A DNA stretch of 64,000 nt. It comes from Rodentibacter caecimuris (GTDB lineage: Bacteria; Pseudomonadota; Gammaproteobacteria; Enterobacterales; Pasteurellaceae). The notes beneath the pieces are model-generated. The model searched no databases. It saw nothing but the letters and a program-made list of their open reading frames with translations, and was not told the origin of the DNA. How positions within the stretch are numbered: the stretch's first letter is position 1; every line of letters starts with the position of its first letter. The DNA is taken from the NCBI RefSeq assembly GCF_001019715.1, contig NZ_BBXJ01000001.1, positions 1,922,001 through 1,986,000 on the forward strand, written 5' to 3'. Shown here one piece after another: positions 52,523 to 63,338 of the stretch. The position numbers were made by a program, and so were the translations under genes.

Positions 52523-53977
52523 TTACCCCAATAGAATCCCAACAGCTACCGGCTGATAAAGTTCCGTCAACGCATAAACCATCGCATCTAATCGGTCAGG
52601 AGATTTTTTTGCTGTTACCGGTACATATTCCATAAGCTGATTTTCTAGTTTGTATAGTGAGCCGGCGTGCCGAACCTTGCCCTGTGTATATAAAGCTGAG
52701 ATTGGCTCTGCCCGGGCAAATTTACTTTTATTAGCATGAATTCGAATAATTCGACCTCTGAAACCAGCATTCTTTAAAGTTTCTTCTGCCATATCGCCCC
52801 CTTGATTTGTTTCAATCACAATACAATCGGCATTGTGTTCTTGATAGGCGAGTATTGCTTTAGTTGCCCAATCACTTGGCGAGTATTTGCCTGAATAATC
52901 TGCATCAACAGAATAAAATTGATCACGTCCGTAACCATAGCCGCTTGCCACAACAATTCCGGTTTCATCGCTTTCATCAGAATTTGTTGCTTGCGGATCG
53001 ATAGCAACAACAGTGCGAGTTAATTCGAATGCTATGACAAGCTCTCGCGCAGCTACAATCATTGATTCGGTCCATAATGCACCTTCCGCATTAAATCGTC
53101 TTGGCGCTTGCATATACTGTGCTTCAGCGGTTCTGCGATGCGAAAACAAAGAGATTCGATGAGTTTCATTATGTTTCTTTTCCCATAACCAGCCATCGGG
53201 TAAGCCGTGTTCAATCTGAATGCCATGAGTATTTTCTTCCGGATATGGAAGTGAATTATCAATTAAAACCGGAAGATTTAAGTGATGCCATTTTTCACCA
53301 CTTCCGCCCCGCAATAGATAACCACTTAAATCGTGATAATGGATACGTTGCATAATCACAATAATTGGCGTGGTTTCTAACGCTAGGCGAGATTTAATCG
53401 TTTCATTAAAGCGATTATTTACGTCGTTACGAACCACATCAGAATAAGCCTCATCAGGCTTAACAGGATCATCAATGATCAATGCTCCTTGCCAACCACT
53501 CTCCATATGCCCGGCGCGAAACCCCGTCACCTGCCCCCCGGCAGATGAAGCATAAACACCGCCGTTTTGTTCTGTCCACCACATTGATTTACTATCGCTA
53601 TCATCACGAAGAGACATTGGCCACATAGACTGAAATGCGGCAGATTTAATCATTGAACGAGCCGTAGCAGAGTTAAGTAGCGCTAAATTATGCGAATAAG
53701 ATAAATGTAAAAAACGTGCACGGGGGTTTAACGCAAGCCCTCTCGCAATAAAATTGATAGAGGCTAATTCTGTTTTGGTGTAGCCCGGTGGCACATTGAT
53801 AATTAAACGATTAATTTCACCATCGATTACTTTCTGCAATGTTTGAATAATAACCCTATGATGAGCATTAATAATCATCTTTCCACCCGTTCGATGTTTA
53901 AAAAAATAACGGGCAAAATAAAGTCCGTCTAATTCGCATTCAAGTTTACGGGCTTGTGAAATATTATCAGCAATCAT
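52523..53977 (-). CDS. terL: Terminase large subunit
   Basis: 484-residue ATPase-nuclease that packages DNA. Walker A-like VPPGYTKTEL at residues 62-71; Walker B LIIDDPVKPDEA around 180; the ATPase coupling region TTPIIVIMQRIHYHDLSG. The RNase H-like nuclease domain starts at VAIDPQATNSDESDETGIV, with IVIETNQGGDMAEE as a further acidic site. It overlaps the small subunit stop by 11 bases. Confidence 0.95.
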   Translation of the reverse strand: MIADNISQARKLECELDGLYFARYFFKHRTGGKMIINAHHRVIIQTLQKVIDGEINRLIINVPPGYTKTELASINFIARGLALNPRARFLHLSYSHNLALLNSATARSMIKSAAFQSMWPMSLRDDSDSKSMWWTEQNGGVYASSAGGQVTGFRAGHMESGWQGALIIDDPVKPDEAYSDVVRNDVNNRFNETIKSRLALETTPIIVIMQRIHYHDLSGYLLRGGSGEKWHHLNLPVLIDNSLPYPEENTHGIQIEHGLPDGWLWEKKHNETHRISLFSHRRTAEAQYMQAPRRFNAEGALWTESMIVAARELVIAFELTRTVVAIDPQATNSDESDETGIVVASGYGYGRDQFYSVDADYSGKYSPSDWATKAILAYQEHNADCIVIETNQGGDMAEETLKNAGFRGRIIRIHANKSKFARAEPISALYTQGKVRHAGSLYKLENQLMEYVPVTAKKSPDRLDAMVYALTELYQPVAVGILLG

Positions 53978-54359
53978 CTTCTTTCAGCATTTGCCGCCTT
54001 ACTTCAGCATAATCCTCTTTATTCATTTGTTTAATTTCAATCGGCGCACCATTTATCCCAGCGTGTTCGGTAATTTGCGTTTCTTTCCAACCCGCTTGTG
54101 ACTTCAAAAAGAAAATCATTGCGGTAGTGTTACCACTTTTGATTTTCTCCATTAATTTATTTGTAACGATGGCAATACCTTTCGCTTTTCCTCTTTTTAT
54201 AGCATCGGCAAAATCGGCAAAATCTCCTTTTCTATTTCGCAGGGTTCTTTCGCTAATTCCCAAACTATCTGCTATTTGCTGCTGTGTTAATCCATTAGCA
54301 GCCAAAGCCTCAACTTGCTTTAAATCGATTTCTATTTTAGGTTTTGTTTGTTTTTTCAT
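53967..54359 (-). CDS. terS: Terminase small subunit
   Basis: 130 residues with a helix-turn-helix (residues ~15-50: LAANGLTQQQIADSLGISERTLR) followed by a helical oligomerisation part (KGIAIVTNKLMEKIKSGNTTAMIFFLKSQAGWKE). It recognises the packaging site, probably just upstream (54,381-54,442). It overlaps terL. Confidence 0.9.
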   Translation of the reverse strand: MKKQTKPKIEIDLKQVEALAANGLTQQQIADSLGISERTLRNRKGDFADFADAIKRGKAKGIAIVTNKLMEKIKSGNTTAMIFFLKSQAGWKETQITEHAGINGAPIEIKQMNKEDYAEVRRQMLKEDDC

Positions 54360-54449: not shown

Positions 54450-55163
54450 TTACGTTCTTTTTTCTCCTTTATACATTCCGGCTCCTCGTTTTTGGATTTC
54501 ACTAAATGGTAGTATTGGACAAGTTAAGCGTCCTTTGGCTTCCGGATTTAAAAAATAAATATAACGTAACTGATAACCATCTAATTCTTTACCGCCTAGC
54601 GCTCGCCATTCAGAGATGTTTCTTGGCTTTACTTCAACACCTAGTCGTTTGCATAATTGAGCGACTGTATCAATATTCCAGTTTGCCGTTAATGTCATAT
54701 TGGCAATTCTTGTTCCATCGGGGAACTCAATCAAGGTTTTATTAGGATTGATTTGGGTTAAAACAAATCCGCTGGCACGATAAATTGTGCCATCTCCACA
54801 TTGTGAACCATCGCTAAAGCTCAGAATCCATTCGATATGCGGATAATGTTTTTTGATTAATTTAAAGGCTATGGATAATGCTCGGCTTTCGCTATTGCGG
54901 GGTAGTACATCGCTAAATGCCATTCTATTTAGTTCTAACATGCCATTCCAAGCGGTATCTTTGACTAAAGGTAAAACTTTGCGCTTATCCATTGGTGACC
55001 CGAAGGACATTACACCTTCTAACTTACCATTTAAGAAAACACCAAAATGTAAAACGCTATTATTGACCACTTTCCCGCTGTAATGAACTTTACGAACAAG
55101 AGCATTCGCAGCCGATGATTTTATCGGTTTTACAATAATATTTTTGGCACTAACTGTTTCCAT
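54450..55163 (-). CDS. Mom-like DNA adenine hypermodification protein
   Basis: 237 residues resembling Mu Mom, a GNAT-fold enzyme that converts adenine to N6-(methylcarbamoyl)adenine and blocks many restriction enzymes. The core here is VRKVHYSGKVVNNSVLHFGVF (in two parts, residues ~23-43), GVMSFGSPMDKRK, ELNRMAFSDVLPRNSESRALS (about 77-97) and ILSFSDGSQCGDGTIYRASGF (about 113-133), the conserved pattern of Mom-family phage proteins. No Com-like translational activator is adjacent; instead a ParB-like gene overlaps its start by 14 bases. Family assignment is from remembered motifs; chemistry may differ from Mu. Confidence 0.75.
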   Translation of the reverse strand: METVSAKNIIVKPIKSSAANALVRKVHYSGKVVNNSVLHFGVFLNGKLEGVMSFGSPMDKRKVLPLVKDTAWNGMLELNRMAFSDVLPRNSESRALSIAFKLIKKHYPHIEWILSFSDGSQCGDGTIYRASGFVLTQINPNKTLIEFPDGTRIANMTLTANWNIDTVAQLCKRLGVEVKPRNISEWRALGGKELDGYQLRYIYFLNPEAKGRLTCPILPFSEIQKRGAGMYKGEKRT

Positions 55164-55776
55164 TTTGTTTTAACCATTGTTCGCAAATATAGGCGATAGC
55201 ATTACCATTTGAATTTTCATTTAATCCCGTATCAATTAACGGGGATGTTTTTGCTTTTAAAATAGCATCATCAACAACTTGAGCCTGCTCATCATGTAAT
55301 GTAAATGTCTTGCGCTGAAAAGGATCTTTCCCTCCATCAGGTAGAACAGGCATTTCGGCTCCAATATCCAATAGCTTATCTAGCACATCATTTTCAAAAC
55401 CAATCAGAGATAAATTAAAGTCAAGTTCCGATAATTGCTCAACTTCAACCCGAAGCATATCAAGATCCCAGCCGGCATTTAAAGCAAGTTGGTTATCCGC
55501 AATAATATAGGCTTTTCGTTGTGCTTTCGTTAAACCAACTAAACGTACTGCCGGCACAGATTCTAAATTTAGCTTTTGGGCGGCTAATAATCGTCCGTGT
55601 CCGGCAATAATCCCATTATCTTCATCAATTAGAATAGGATTACAAAAACCAAATTCTTTAATGCTTGCTACAATTTGATTTACTTGATTGTCAGAATGTG
55701 TGCGGCTGTTATTTACATAGGGGATCAAATCCCGAATATTTAAATACTCAATTTCAAGATCTTGTTTAGTAGTCAT
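55150..55776 (-). CDS. ParB/Srx-like domain protein paired with the Mom-like gene
   Basis: The start is the ATG at 55,776 preceded by AAGGTG. 208 residues: LEIEYLNIRDLIPYVNNSR and VNQIVASIKEFGFCNPILID form the ParB N-terminal fold, with GIIAGHGRLLAAQKL (residues ~55-70) as the nucleotide/phosphate motif, and LTKAQRKAYIIADNQLALNAGWD, a segment typical of phage ParB-like proteins that accompany DNA modification enzymes. There is no centromere-binding HTH, so partitioning is unlikely. The 14-base overlap with the Mom-like gene implies a joint role. Confidence 0.8.
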   Translation of the reverse strand: MTTKQDLEIEYLNIRDLIPYVNNSRTHSDNQVNQIVASIKEFGFCNPILIDEDNGIIAGHGRLLAAQKLNLESVPAVRLVGLTKAQRKAYIIADNQLALNAGWDLDMLRVEVEQLSELDFNLSLIGFENDVLDKLLDIGAEMPVLPDGGKDPFQRKTFTLHDEQAQVVDDAILKAKTSPLIDTGLNENSNGNAIAYICEQWLKQNGNS

Positions 55777-55793: not shown

Positions 55794-56078
55794 TTATTTC
55801 TGTGCTTGTTCTACTCGCCACTCTCGAATCTTATCAACCCGATTCAGACACATATCACGCTCACGCTTGAGAATGACAGCATACTGTGTCACATCGCCGT
55901 AGGTGCTACCACTGAATGGGGTTTTGTCTAAATGAGAGATGAAAGCTGCAGGGAGCGTAGGACAAGCGGTAATTACCGGTTCATTCTTGGCGCAAGAAGT
56001 CGATAACAGAGCGAGGAGCATTGCTGTTATAGGCATCACTGCTTTTCTCTTGCTGAGAAATTGATTTAATAACGTCAT
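55794..56078 (-). CDS. Rz1-like outer-membrane spanin lipoprotein
   Basis: 94 residues with lipoprotein signal: basic SKRK then MPITAMLLALLSTSC (lipobox LSTSC, Cys29). The mature part has Cys and Pro (ITACPTLPAAF) and a helical end. The first 98 bases lie inside the Rz-like gene in another frame, the classic Rz/Rz1 nesting. It would link with Rz to fuse inner and outer membranes at lysis. Confidence 0.82.
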   Translation of the reverse strand: MTLLNQFLSKRKAVMPITAMLLALLSTSCAKNEPVITACPTLPAAFISHLDKTPFSGSTYGDVTQYAVILKRERDMCLNRVDKIREWRVEQAQK

Positions 56079-56319
56079 TGGCTTTATTCCTTGATTCGGT
56101 TTCTTGCTTACTGAGTTCTAGTGTCAATCGTTCATTTTCCTTGGCTTGTAATTCAAGCTTAGAAATGACCGCACTTTGTTGTGTAATAGTTTGGGCTTGC
56201 GTTTGATTCTTGGCTCTTAAGCTAGAGATTGTGTTGTGCTGAACCCTTAACCAAAAGCACAAGCCCAAAATAAGAAAAAGTGCGGTAAGTTTTATCTCAC
56301 TTTCAACTCTCTTAAACAT
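55981..56319 (-). CDS. Rz-like inner-membrane spanin
   Basis: 112 residues: one N-terminal transmembrane helix (LTALFLILGLCFWLRVQ, residues ~11-27) followed by a periplasmic coiled coil (SAVISKLELQAKENERLTLEL). It overlaps the endolysin stop by 28 bases and contains the Rz1-like start in another frame. Function: inner-membrane half of the spanin. Confidence 0.83.
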   Translation of the reverse strand: MFKRVESEIKLTALFLILGLCFWLRVQHNTISSLRAKNQTQAQTITQQSAVISKLELQAKENERLTLELSKQETESRNKANDVIKSISQQEKSSDAYNSNAPRSVIDFLRQE

Positions 56320-56825
56320 AATGCTTTTTCCTTTTCTCGCCGTATCTCAAGCCCACGTAATTTCTTACCGCCGGCATAAACCCACTTCGGTAATTCATTA
56401 CACGCTCCGATATAATCACCTGCGTTAGCTTTGCGGAACATTGTTGATTTACGCATTGCACCACAGCCAACGTTAAATACAATTGAAGTCATTGCATCAA
56501 ATGTGCCTTGAGATAGATTCTTACCGTTGCCGTATTGATTAACGCAGCGTTCTGCTATACGTAAGTCATTCGCCCAACGGTCAGCAATTTCTTTATCCGT
56601 GTAACGTTTATTGGGATTGATAGCACCTCCGCTTACTTCTGTCGAACCAATACCCACCGTTAATACATCAGACGGGCATTGATAAGGGTCACGGCGGCAA
56701 CCTTCCGCATTACCGATAATTTCCATTCCGACTTGACTGGTACGTAAGTCAGGGTGATTCAATTGAAGTAGCCCGATAATTACTGAGATTGAACAAGCTG
56801 CAATGATTTTCTTTTTATGTTTCAT
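56292..56825 (-). CDS. SAR endolysin (lysozyme, GH24), P1 Lyz-type
   Basis: 177-residue muramidase. N-terminal signal-anchor-release helix (IIAACSISVIIGLLQ, residues 7-21) without a cleavage site. Catalytic layout E-x8-C-x5-T: Glu41, Cys50, Thr56 in EGCRRDPYQCPSDVLTVG. Cys11 in the SAR helix, Cys43 and the catalytic Cys50 reproduce the three cysteines of P1 Lyz, where a 44-51 disulfide holds the tethered enzyme inactive until Cys13 swaps in after release. This regulation is inferred by residue match. It overlaps the holin stop by 4 bases. Confidence 0.9.
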   Translation of the reverse strand: MKHKKKIIAACSISVIIGLLQLNHPDLRTSQVGMEIIGNAEGCRRDPYQCPSDVLTVGIGSTEVSGGAINPNKRYTDKEIADRWANDLRIAERCVNQYGNGKNLSQGTFDAMTSIVFNVGCGAMRKSTMFRKANAGDYIGACNELPKWVYAGGKKLRGLEIRREKEKALCLRELKVR

Positions 56826-57049
56826 TCAATTAACTTCCCTTTCTTATCACGAATGCCAATTCGAATTTCTTCTAACTCTATCATTCGCTTTTTATGACGT
56901 GATTCGCGAATATAGCCGCAAATAGTCACAACAATACCGATTAATATTGCCCATTCGCTTAAGGTCAACACACCAAAAAATGAAGTGAGCCAACCATAGA
57001 CTTGAGATTCAATCGGAATGTCTTTTAATGTTTCTTTCATTCTGTTCAT
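56822..57049 (-). CDS. HP1-family holin/pinholin
   Basis: Start at the ATG at 57,049 (GGGGGCGGAG just upstream); an ATG three codons later is also possible. About 75 residues: amphipathic N terminus, a hydrophobic stretch LTSFFGVLTLSEWAILIGIVVTICGYI (split by a short polar turn) and a highly charged C terminus (ESRHKKRMIELEE). This resembles the HP1-type holin family. With a SAR endolysin, a small-hole pinholin that depolarises the membrane is expected. Overlaps the endolysin by ATGA. Confidence 0.8.
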   Translation of the reverse strand: MNRMKETLKDIPIESQVYGWLTSFFGVLTLSEWAILIGIVVTICGYIRESRHKKRMIELEEIRIGIRDKKGKLIE

Positions 57050-57073
57050 GCTCCGCCCCCTTTCTTTGAGGCA

Positions 57074-57102
57074 ATAAAAAAGCTCGCCTATTAAAGCGAG
57101 CC
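57074..57102 (-). terminator. Terminator just upstream of the lysis genes
   Basis: On the minus strand GGCTCGC-TTTAATAG-GCGAGC is followed by TTTTTTATTG, ending ~25 bases before the holin start. It would block leftward transcripts entering the lysis/late operon unless antiterminated. Confidence 0.82.
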
Positions 57103-57153
57103 ATAGTTCTGTTAAGATAAAGTTCCCACACAATAAAATAACAGAGGTTTAAA

Positions 57154-62125: not shown

Positions 62126-62748
62126 CGACACAATCTCAATTAAATCAAATTTCGCCGGAGCGTGCGCAACGTGCCGAAGCGATGATTAATTGGCTCTTTC
62201 AGGAGTTGAAAGGTATTTTCCCCGGCTGGCGTACTGCATTTGAGACCGAAGCGGATTATCTTTCGGCAAAACAAACTTGGTTGCGTGTGTTGGTGCAAGA
62301 AAAAATCACAAAATCCCAGTTGCAGGATGGGCTAAATGCCGCAGAGAAATCCAAGGATAAATTTTTGCCAAGCGTAGGGTTGTTCGTTTCTTGGTGCAAA
62401 GCACTTGACTATCACGCGCTAGGCTTACCAAACGAAACGGAATTATACCAACGCTACCAAACTTTCTTAGGCTATGCCAGATTCAATCTGGACGAATTTC
62501 AATATCGCTCAAAAGTGGAGTATTGGTTGCTGAAAAATCTCTACGAAAAGTGCAAGAAAAAATCGGAAGAGGACACGTTGAAAGCCATTCCGAAATTACT
62601 CACGGAAGCGGCGGAAAAAGTGCGGTCAAATTTCCCTTTTGAGGAGATTCCAAAAGGGATTCCGGAGCAACCAAGTTTTTACGACAAGGACCGAGCAAAT
62701 CAAGCAAGAGACCGTTTAATGGCTGAAGTACGAGGAGCAATGCAATGA
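62113..62748 (+). CDS. Replication protein P-like
   Basis: Start at the ATG at 62,113, inside the end of the O-like gene. 211 residues: ERAQRAEAMINWLFQELKGIFPGW, 'SAKQTWLRVLVQEKITKSQL', PSVGLFVSWCKALDYHALGLP. This is the lambda P family layout; P recruits host DnaB helicase to the origin. The C terminus is charged. It overlaps the methylase start by 4 bases (ATGA). An uptake sequence lies inside (AAAGTGCGGT near 62,616). Confidence 0.85.
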   Translation: MGTLATQSQLNQISPERAQRAEAMINWLFQELKGIFPGWRTAFETEADYLSAKQTWLRVLVQEKITKSQLQDGLNAAEKSKDKFLPSVGLFVSWCKALDYHALGLPNETELYQRYQTFLGYARFNLDEFQYRSKVEYWLLKNLYEKCKKKSEEDTLKAIPKLLTEAAEKVRSNFPFEEIPKGIPEQPSFYDKDRANQARDRLMAEVRGAMQ

Positions 62749-63338
62749 CCGAATTTAACAAAGACCACTATCGCACGCCGAAGTATTTTTTTAACTGGTT
62801 ACAAAATAAATTTGGCTCGTTCGATCTTGATGGTTGTGCGGATTACCAAAACGCATTGTGCTATCGCTACATCGGTGAGCCTGCACCGGAAGGATATGGC
62901 AACGATGATATTCCGTTTCCGGACAATATTTCGATTGCCCCTGATTTTTTGGCGGATGATTTATTTGACAAGCTACTTGATGAAGTAGCCGAGCGTTGTT
63001 ATTTCCCATTGCGAATTTATGTTAATCCGCCTTACTCAAATGTTACGCCTTATCTTCAACGTGCAAAAGAATTAAGAGATGCCGGCTATATGGTGGTGAT
63101 GTTACTCAACAATGATAAATCTACCAAATGGTATCAAAACCATATTCATGGTGTGGCAAACGAAGTGATTGATATTGCCGGTGGACGAATTAATTTCTTG
63201 CATCCAGTTACAGGCAAAGAAGCGAAGGGAAACAGCAAAGGTCAAATGGTAATCGTGTTCGATCCAAGTATGGAAGATTTTGTGACTCGTTCAGTGAGTT
63301 TGGATTTTGTGAAAAAGGTCGGTGGGTATGGAGCATAA
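62745..63338 (+). CDS. Phage DNA N6-adenine methyltransferase (Dam-like)
   Basis: 197 residues of the phage adenine methylase family: KDHYRTPKYFFNWLQNKFG, 'DLDGCADYQNALC', the catalytic NPPYS motif at residues 94-98 (YVNPPYSNVTPYL), VVMLLNNDKSTKW and GRINFLHPVTGKEAKGNSKG. It should methylate adenine, possibly in GATC, affecting restriction sensitivity or timing of phage genes. It follows P and precedes ninB. Confidence 0.92.
   Translation: MTEFNKDHYRTPKYFFNWLQNKFGSFDLDGCADYQNALCYRYIGEPAPEGYGNDDIPFPDNISIAPDFLADDLFDKLLDEVAERCYFPLRIYVNPPYSNVTPYLQRAKELRDAGYMVVMLLNNDKSTKWYQNHIHGVANEVIDIAGGRINFLHPVTGKEAKGNSKGQMVIVFDPSMEDFVTRSVSLDFVKKVGGYGA

Follow-up and report, generated by a model that had tools for sequence, protein, structure and literature searches.

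A prophage of Rodentibacter caecimuris carries two overlapping genes, parB and mom, whose products probably make up a two-subunit DNA-modification enzyme of the phage. Mom would be the catalytic subunit, the head of the ParB-fold protein a DNA-engaging adaptor, and the ParB tail the part that holds Mom. The genes lie in a stretch of 64,000 nucleotides (the window) of a two-contig host assembly totalling 2.72 Mb (Table 1). By analogy with Mom of phage Mu, the GNAT-fold subunit would add a methylcarbamoyl or related acyl group to N6 of adenine. The ParB head may load onto DNA, perhaps in an NTP-regulated manner, and a complex of Mom with the tail, presumably expressed late, would allow Mom to act along the phage DNA prior to packaging. 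Because Mu Mom presumably works without a ParB, the ParB-fold protein should aid the targeting, extent or timing of modification rather than its chemistry.

Organization of the locus and its two proteins

On the minus strand, the prophage genes are arranged in the order holin-like, endolysin, Rz-like, Rz1-like, parB, mom, small terminase, large terminase and portal. The first-pass annotation had described a Mom-like and a ParB-like gene overlapping by 14 bases and had read them as a possible DNA modification system. The coordinates confirm the overlap, both family assignments stand, and the system is supported, with the modification itself predicted. The slot between the lysis and terminase genes would fit DNA modification late in infection, before packaging. 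The two genes are separate open reading frames, and a ParB–Mom fusion is absent among the 215 loci examined. A phage Dam gene sits apart from the pair, between the replication P and NinB genes. Transcription of Mu mom is described as requiring host Dam (PMC10434257), and so a link of the prophage Dam gene to parB–mom is possible.

Table 1 Features of the parB–mom region, in positions of the window
Feature	Position	Strand	Basis or remark
Mom-family GNAT-fold DNA modification enzyme (predicted), 237 aa	54450..55163	-	
parB, ParB-fold partner gene, 208 aa with the ATG start (223 aa with GTG 55821)	55150..55776	-	
Overlap of parB 3' end and mom 5' end, 14 bases	55150..55163		parB last base 55150, mom first base 55163
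Mom Ser93 codon, at the position of Mu Mom Ser124	54885..54887	-	alignment to Mu Mom
Stretch near the Mom C terminus bearing a GAGMYKG-type motif; may contact the ParB tail	54465..54527	-	
ParB head, residues 1-138, GHGR and ADN motifs; common to partners of other DNA modifiers	55363..55776	-	
ParB tail A, residues 148-203, flexible linker end and two helices; invariant Q164, N186, N192	55168..55335	-	
Terminase small subunit	53967..54359	-	phrog_309, 4.5e-35
Terminase large subunit	52523..53977	-	PF17289, 5.1e-16
Lysis cassette directly upstream of parB: holin-like, endolysin, Rz-like, Rz1-like	55794..57133	-	
Phage Dam methyltransferase, early region, apart from parB–mom	62745..63338	+	PF05869, 6.1e-30

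The downstream protein belongs to the Mom family. It scores 182 bits against the PF25680 profile, whose curated cut-off is 27 bits, has the GNAT-like fold of Mu Mom, and shares 20 of 23 invariant positions with Mu Mom at 35.5% identity. Ser93, which corresponds to Ser124 of Mu Mom, is invariant in all 91 aligned Mom proteins, and the structure 8bv8 is, by its title, that of the inactive Mu Mom mutant S124A. Among the matches listed, the nearest Mom of a named species in GTDB is that of Gallibacterium anatis (86%), and three viral contigs carry a Mom matching at 99-100%. Over 398 genomes of the phylum, PF25680 matches ten at E ≤0.001, five of them above the cut-off, the window included; these matches were left out of the linkage counts given below.

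The upstream protein has the ParB-CTPase fold, with a ParB N domain bearing the GxxR and D/E-N motifs. Structure comparison, mainly over residues 2-144, places it in a fold common to the free serine kinase and sulfiredoxin. The model match stops at residue 144, with weak HTH-like matches for residues 102-144, and the neighbours of parB are lysis, mom and terminase genes, with no parA among them. A role in partition was rejected on these two grounds. Tail A matches no named family, the best E values being 0.017 in Pfam and 0.23 among the sequences of solved structures. It has a strand-helix-helix look, which would suggest a ribbon-helix-helix domain. This assignment is weak: the predicted model contains two helices and no strand, and no test spoke in its favour. 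The arginine of the GxxR nucleotide motif is present in all 157 ParBs of the partner survey described below and is missing in 12 of 79 Mom-linked ParBs, and hence NTP control may not be general.

Linkage of ParB and Mom among relatives

The first-pass annotation had tied its proposal to the co-occurrence of Mom-like and ParB-like genes in relatives, and the two do recur together. Among the best 80 viral Mom loci, ParB lies directly upstream in 78, that is, in all 78 that are testable; the other two have fewer than 120 bases of upstream sequence, and in one of them, L061, the end of a ParB tail is visible. Among the GTDB matches listed, 55 Mom loci were inspected. ParB lies directly upstream in 34, upstream with a second Mom in between in 9 more, and 718 bases upstream, again beyond a second Mom, in L105, L113, L114, L117 and L118. 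This amounts to 48 of 53 testable loci, with L134 lacking sequence upstream and L136 lacking a Mom by profile. The five loci without an intact adjoining ParB are L087, L089, L095 and L129, all from Bradyrhizobium, and L135, a fragment. ParB pieces lie 1.1 to 2.4 kb away in L087 and L095, and the four Bradyrhizobium loci, with a broken or absent ParB, are possibly decaying prophages. The GTDB records, many of them metagenome bins, bear titles from Proteobacteria, Firmicutes, Bacteroidetes, Acidobacteria, Verrucomicrobia, Anaerolineae, Phycisphaerae, a treponeme, Actinobacteria and Saccharibacteria; for part of them the higher rank is that of the genus named.

The linkage is also seen from the ParB side. 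A search with the tail only gave, in its best 80 loci, Mom downstream in 79, with the Mom start at most 150 bases from the ParB end in 75 and at 259-278 bases in 4. The sequence of the remaining locus, L291, stops 149 bases past ParB, and 51 of the 80 contigs are absent from the Mom-first set. A search with the whole ParB added 79 new loci among the matches listed. Mom lies at most 900 bases away in all 14 of these that bear the tail and in 3 of the 65 that do not; by profile, Mom is the next gene in 4 of the 65 and belongs to another group. Because the linkage scans keep the best 80 matches, the linkage applies to close relatives. For Mu and other cultured phages, no ParB was found in the stretches examined around any of nine Mom genes (the eight records other than Mu were picked by hand from the list of Mom matches), indicating that the chemistry does not depend on ParB in every phage.

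The genes overlap in 119 of 138 pairs, 14 bases being the commonest overlap (48 pairs, repeats included). A terminase gene lies downstream in at least 92 of 172 tail-A loci and at least 33 of 51 other head loci, which are lower bounds because the iterative search misses many; in that search, none was found upstream in 75 tail-A loci or 59 other head loci. The overlap, terminase and motif counts span overlapping searches, so that one contig may count repeatedly, and the latter two also take in the copy of the window itself. Chance neighbourhood was rejected on the linkage from both Mom-first and tail-first searches. Unrelated modification genes also use the slot before the terminase, and parB and mom might be neighbours only because this slot gathers accessory genes. 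However, the near-total linkage from both directions, the overlap and the association of the tail with Mom make such an explanation extremely improbable.

This association appears first in a C-terminal motif of Mom. The GAGMYKG-type motif is present in 204 of 217 Mom proteins encoded downstream of a tail-A ParB (repeats included), and of the 12 listed that lack it, 9 are Mom proteins of another type. The motif occurs in none of 8 Mom proteins beside other ParBs and in none of the 9 of Mu and cultured phages. Two further classes, with no ParB upstream and with (23) or without (12) the motif, were excluded as evidence: their Mom reading frames were counted from the stop codon ahead of them, and L086, for example, was placed there though its ParB was detected otherwise. 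Tandem Mom genes follow ParB in L122 (966-1667), L124 (5207-5998), L126 (4476-5174) and L113 (1275-2129). In three of these four loci, the first Mom is of the other type, without the C-terminal motif and with a CGIVYQxS stretch.

Secondly, Mom distances correlate with tail distances at a rho of 0.54 and with head distances at 0.35 (82 pairs). The tail correlation was reached by none of 200 head subsets of the same size drawn at random and by none of 300 label shuffles. Head blocks near the tail track Mom no better than distant head blocks, which argues against plain distance along the DNA but not against a breakpoint at the joint between head and tail. Because tail and mom adjoin in the DNA, their co-tracking may reflect joint inheritance.

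Partners of the ParB head and their possible exchange

The ParB head is found with many other modification enzymes. In a survey of 158 loci from two head searches (among the matches listed, contigs partly shared, with L034, already counted, and one repeat left out), a known or predicted DNA-modifying enzyme is fused to or adjoins the head in 146. The partner is an N6/N4 methyltransferase in 83 loci, 79 of them fused, and Mom in 33, Mom being further on, beyond a spurious short open reading frame, in L143-L146. An ABC-ATPase-GNAT protein is the partner in 9 loci, a TET-associated glycosyltransferase (TAGT) in 9, a C5 methyltransferase in 7, a TET/JBP dioxygenase in 3, and a TGT-like protein and a D12 Dam methyltransferase in 1 each. 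The remaining 12 comprise four members of one family, two PAPS reductases, five singletons of other or unclear kind and one contig end. In Pfam, an N6_N4_Mtase match is present in all 77 fused proteins scanned, two with unread bases being left out. The 78 next proteins include 29 Mom, 9 TAGT, 9 ABC (8 of them also matching a GNAT family), 7 C5, 4 N6/N4, 3 TET/JBP and 1 D12. DNA modification by ABC-GNAT proteins is itself presented as a prediction (PMC7824862), and the TGT-like partner would also modify DNA.

The acyl donor of Mom might be made or fed by ParB as a nucleotide-using enzyme, and the fold that ParB has in common with the free serine kinase and sulfiredoxin is in line with this. However, the same head occurs with methyltransferases, TET/JBP dioxygenases and glycosyltransferases, whose cofactors differ, and the nucleotide-motif arginine is not kept in all Mom-linked ParBs. 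Such a role is therefore very unlikely, and the different cofactor route suggested in the first-pass annotation was rejected on the same evidence.

The head fusions also bear on whether ParB regulates the expression of mom, as DndB or Com does for other modification genes. The overlap of the two genes permits translational coupling, and a ParB-like protein, DndB, is described as repressing a modification operon (PMC12704722). A separate regulator, however, makes little sense in the 79 of 158 loci where the head is fused to a methyltransferase, and the tail follows the protein sequence of Mom, so that we regard regulation as unlikely. The earlier suggestion that ParB takes the place of Com is likewise weak: com–mom of Mu lies near the genome end and the present pair ahead of the terminase, and ParB bears no mark of a translation activator.

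In another scheme, ParB would be an NTP-dependent nickase or nuclease acting on unmodified host or rival DNA, with Mom protecting the phage, thereby forming a small restriction-modification pair. A ParB domain fused to an adenine methylase is described as nicking DNA non-specifically, and other ParB-like proteins as having DNase activity (PMC5512222). However, the head accompanies many chemically different modifiers, and an attack on unmodified DNA would need to spare the product of each of them. The DNase and NTPase activities were both placed at a conserved arginine (PMC5512222); if this is the GxxR arginine, as we read it, it is gone in the 12 Mom-linked ParBs, which keep the tail residues. 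We consider this scheme improbable.

The two-subunit modification enzyme thus remains the preferred reading, and its tail may be one of several. A CxxC tail is present in all 7 ParBs beside C5 methyltransferases and in all 8 beside the second Mom group, and so tail class is linked to the enzyme, although not one to one; apart from tail A and CxxC, the tail labels rest on a loose pattern. A tree of 222 heads, short and poorly resolved, requires 72 partner changes, compared with 106 on average and 95 at the lowest after shuffling; this suggests repeated partner exchange and nothing beyond it. Tentatively, a single exchangeable head of the ParB fold may serve tailed phages and prophages as an all-purpose adaptor, which might be a DNA clamp gated by NTP. 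The base modifiers that it would serve are chemically unrelated (Mom, ABC-GNAT, N6/N4 and C5 methyltransferases, TET/JBP, TAGT and TGT-like), and the tail or a fusion would fit the partner. ParB–Mom is the clearest case of this adaptor reading, because in the loci surveyed tail A is found with Mom only.

Several partners deserve mention in their own right. ParB adjoins an ABC-ATPase-GNAT gene in L150, L151, L154, L174, L192, L193, L199, L312 and L363, a candidate for another DNA acyl modification pair. CxxC-tail ParBs overlap a C5 methyltransferase gene in L167, L175, L185, L210, L320, L326 and L341, and four of these enzymes, when inspected, contain an SPPC motif; a motif of this name is given for the carboxymethyltransferase CmoX (PMC12783734). 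In L166, L176, L190 and L328, ParB is found beside a protein family of about 300-330 residues, which might be a new DNA modifier; the two members scanned matched nothing in Pfam or PHROG.

Comparison with known systems

ParB genes beside DNA modifiers are already known in print. Among the open-licence papers searched, none was found to describe the ParB–Mom pair, the tail dedicated to it or the pattern that links head, tail and enzyme; an earlier mention is possible in the 2009 and 2013 papers on predicted DNA modification systems, those of 2018 and 2021 on thymidine hypermodification, or the paper on the Mu Mom mechanism. ParB–Mom is a two-gene system whose ParB has a dedicated tail, structures are known for its enzyme family, and one example comes from a cultured phage, so that the role of ParB beside modifiers becomes testable, namely whether it docks, loads, clamps, cuts or regulates. 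It could also explain how enzymes without shared chemistry are aimed at phage DNA.

The window resembles phage Mu in the Mom family, the GNAT fold and the position of the catalytic serine, at the 35.5% identity given above. In Mu, com overlaps mom from upstream, whereas the overlapping upstream gene of the window is parB; Com is a zinc-finger activator of mom translation (PMC6483171). Mu Mom also differs in lacking the GAGMYKG motif, in having no ParB in the stretch examined, and in the position of com–mom near the genome end. The phage ParB-N6/N4 methyltransferase fusions have a closely related head and the same slot before the terminase, but the window has separate genes, Mom as the enzyme, and tail A. 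A survey of the ParB fold describes phage methyltransferase fusions as well as a single bacterial ParB-acetyltransferase fusion that binds GTP; the main text of that survey never uses the word Mom (PMC12704722). As with the ParBc proteins beside CmoX cytosine C5-carboxymethyltransferases, a ParB gene adjoins a DNA base modifier; 1660 ParBc sequences are reported in contigs with CmoX, where their precise function is called unknown (PMC12783734). The enzyme of the window is another one, and the surveyed ParBs beside C5 methyltransferases have the CxxC tail. A possible system of thymidine hypermodification with five genes likewise includes a parB-like gene (PMC11955845).

The same pair, in the same order before the terminase, is present as ORF16-17 of the Psychrobacter phage vB_PmaS_Y8A, with a Mom 55% and a ParB 79% identical to those of the window. 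In the description of that phage, the two are annotated as ParB/sulfiredoxin and a hypothetical protein, ORF16 is discussed in terms of chromosome partition, and the protein named Mom is ORF69 (PMC10434257). The annotation of such parB genes as chromosome partition genes would be corrected. Unlike partition ParB, Noc and KorB, the ParB of the window has a tail of another kind, a match that ends at residue 144, and no ParA among its neighbours.
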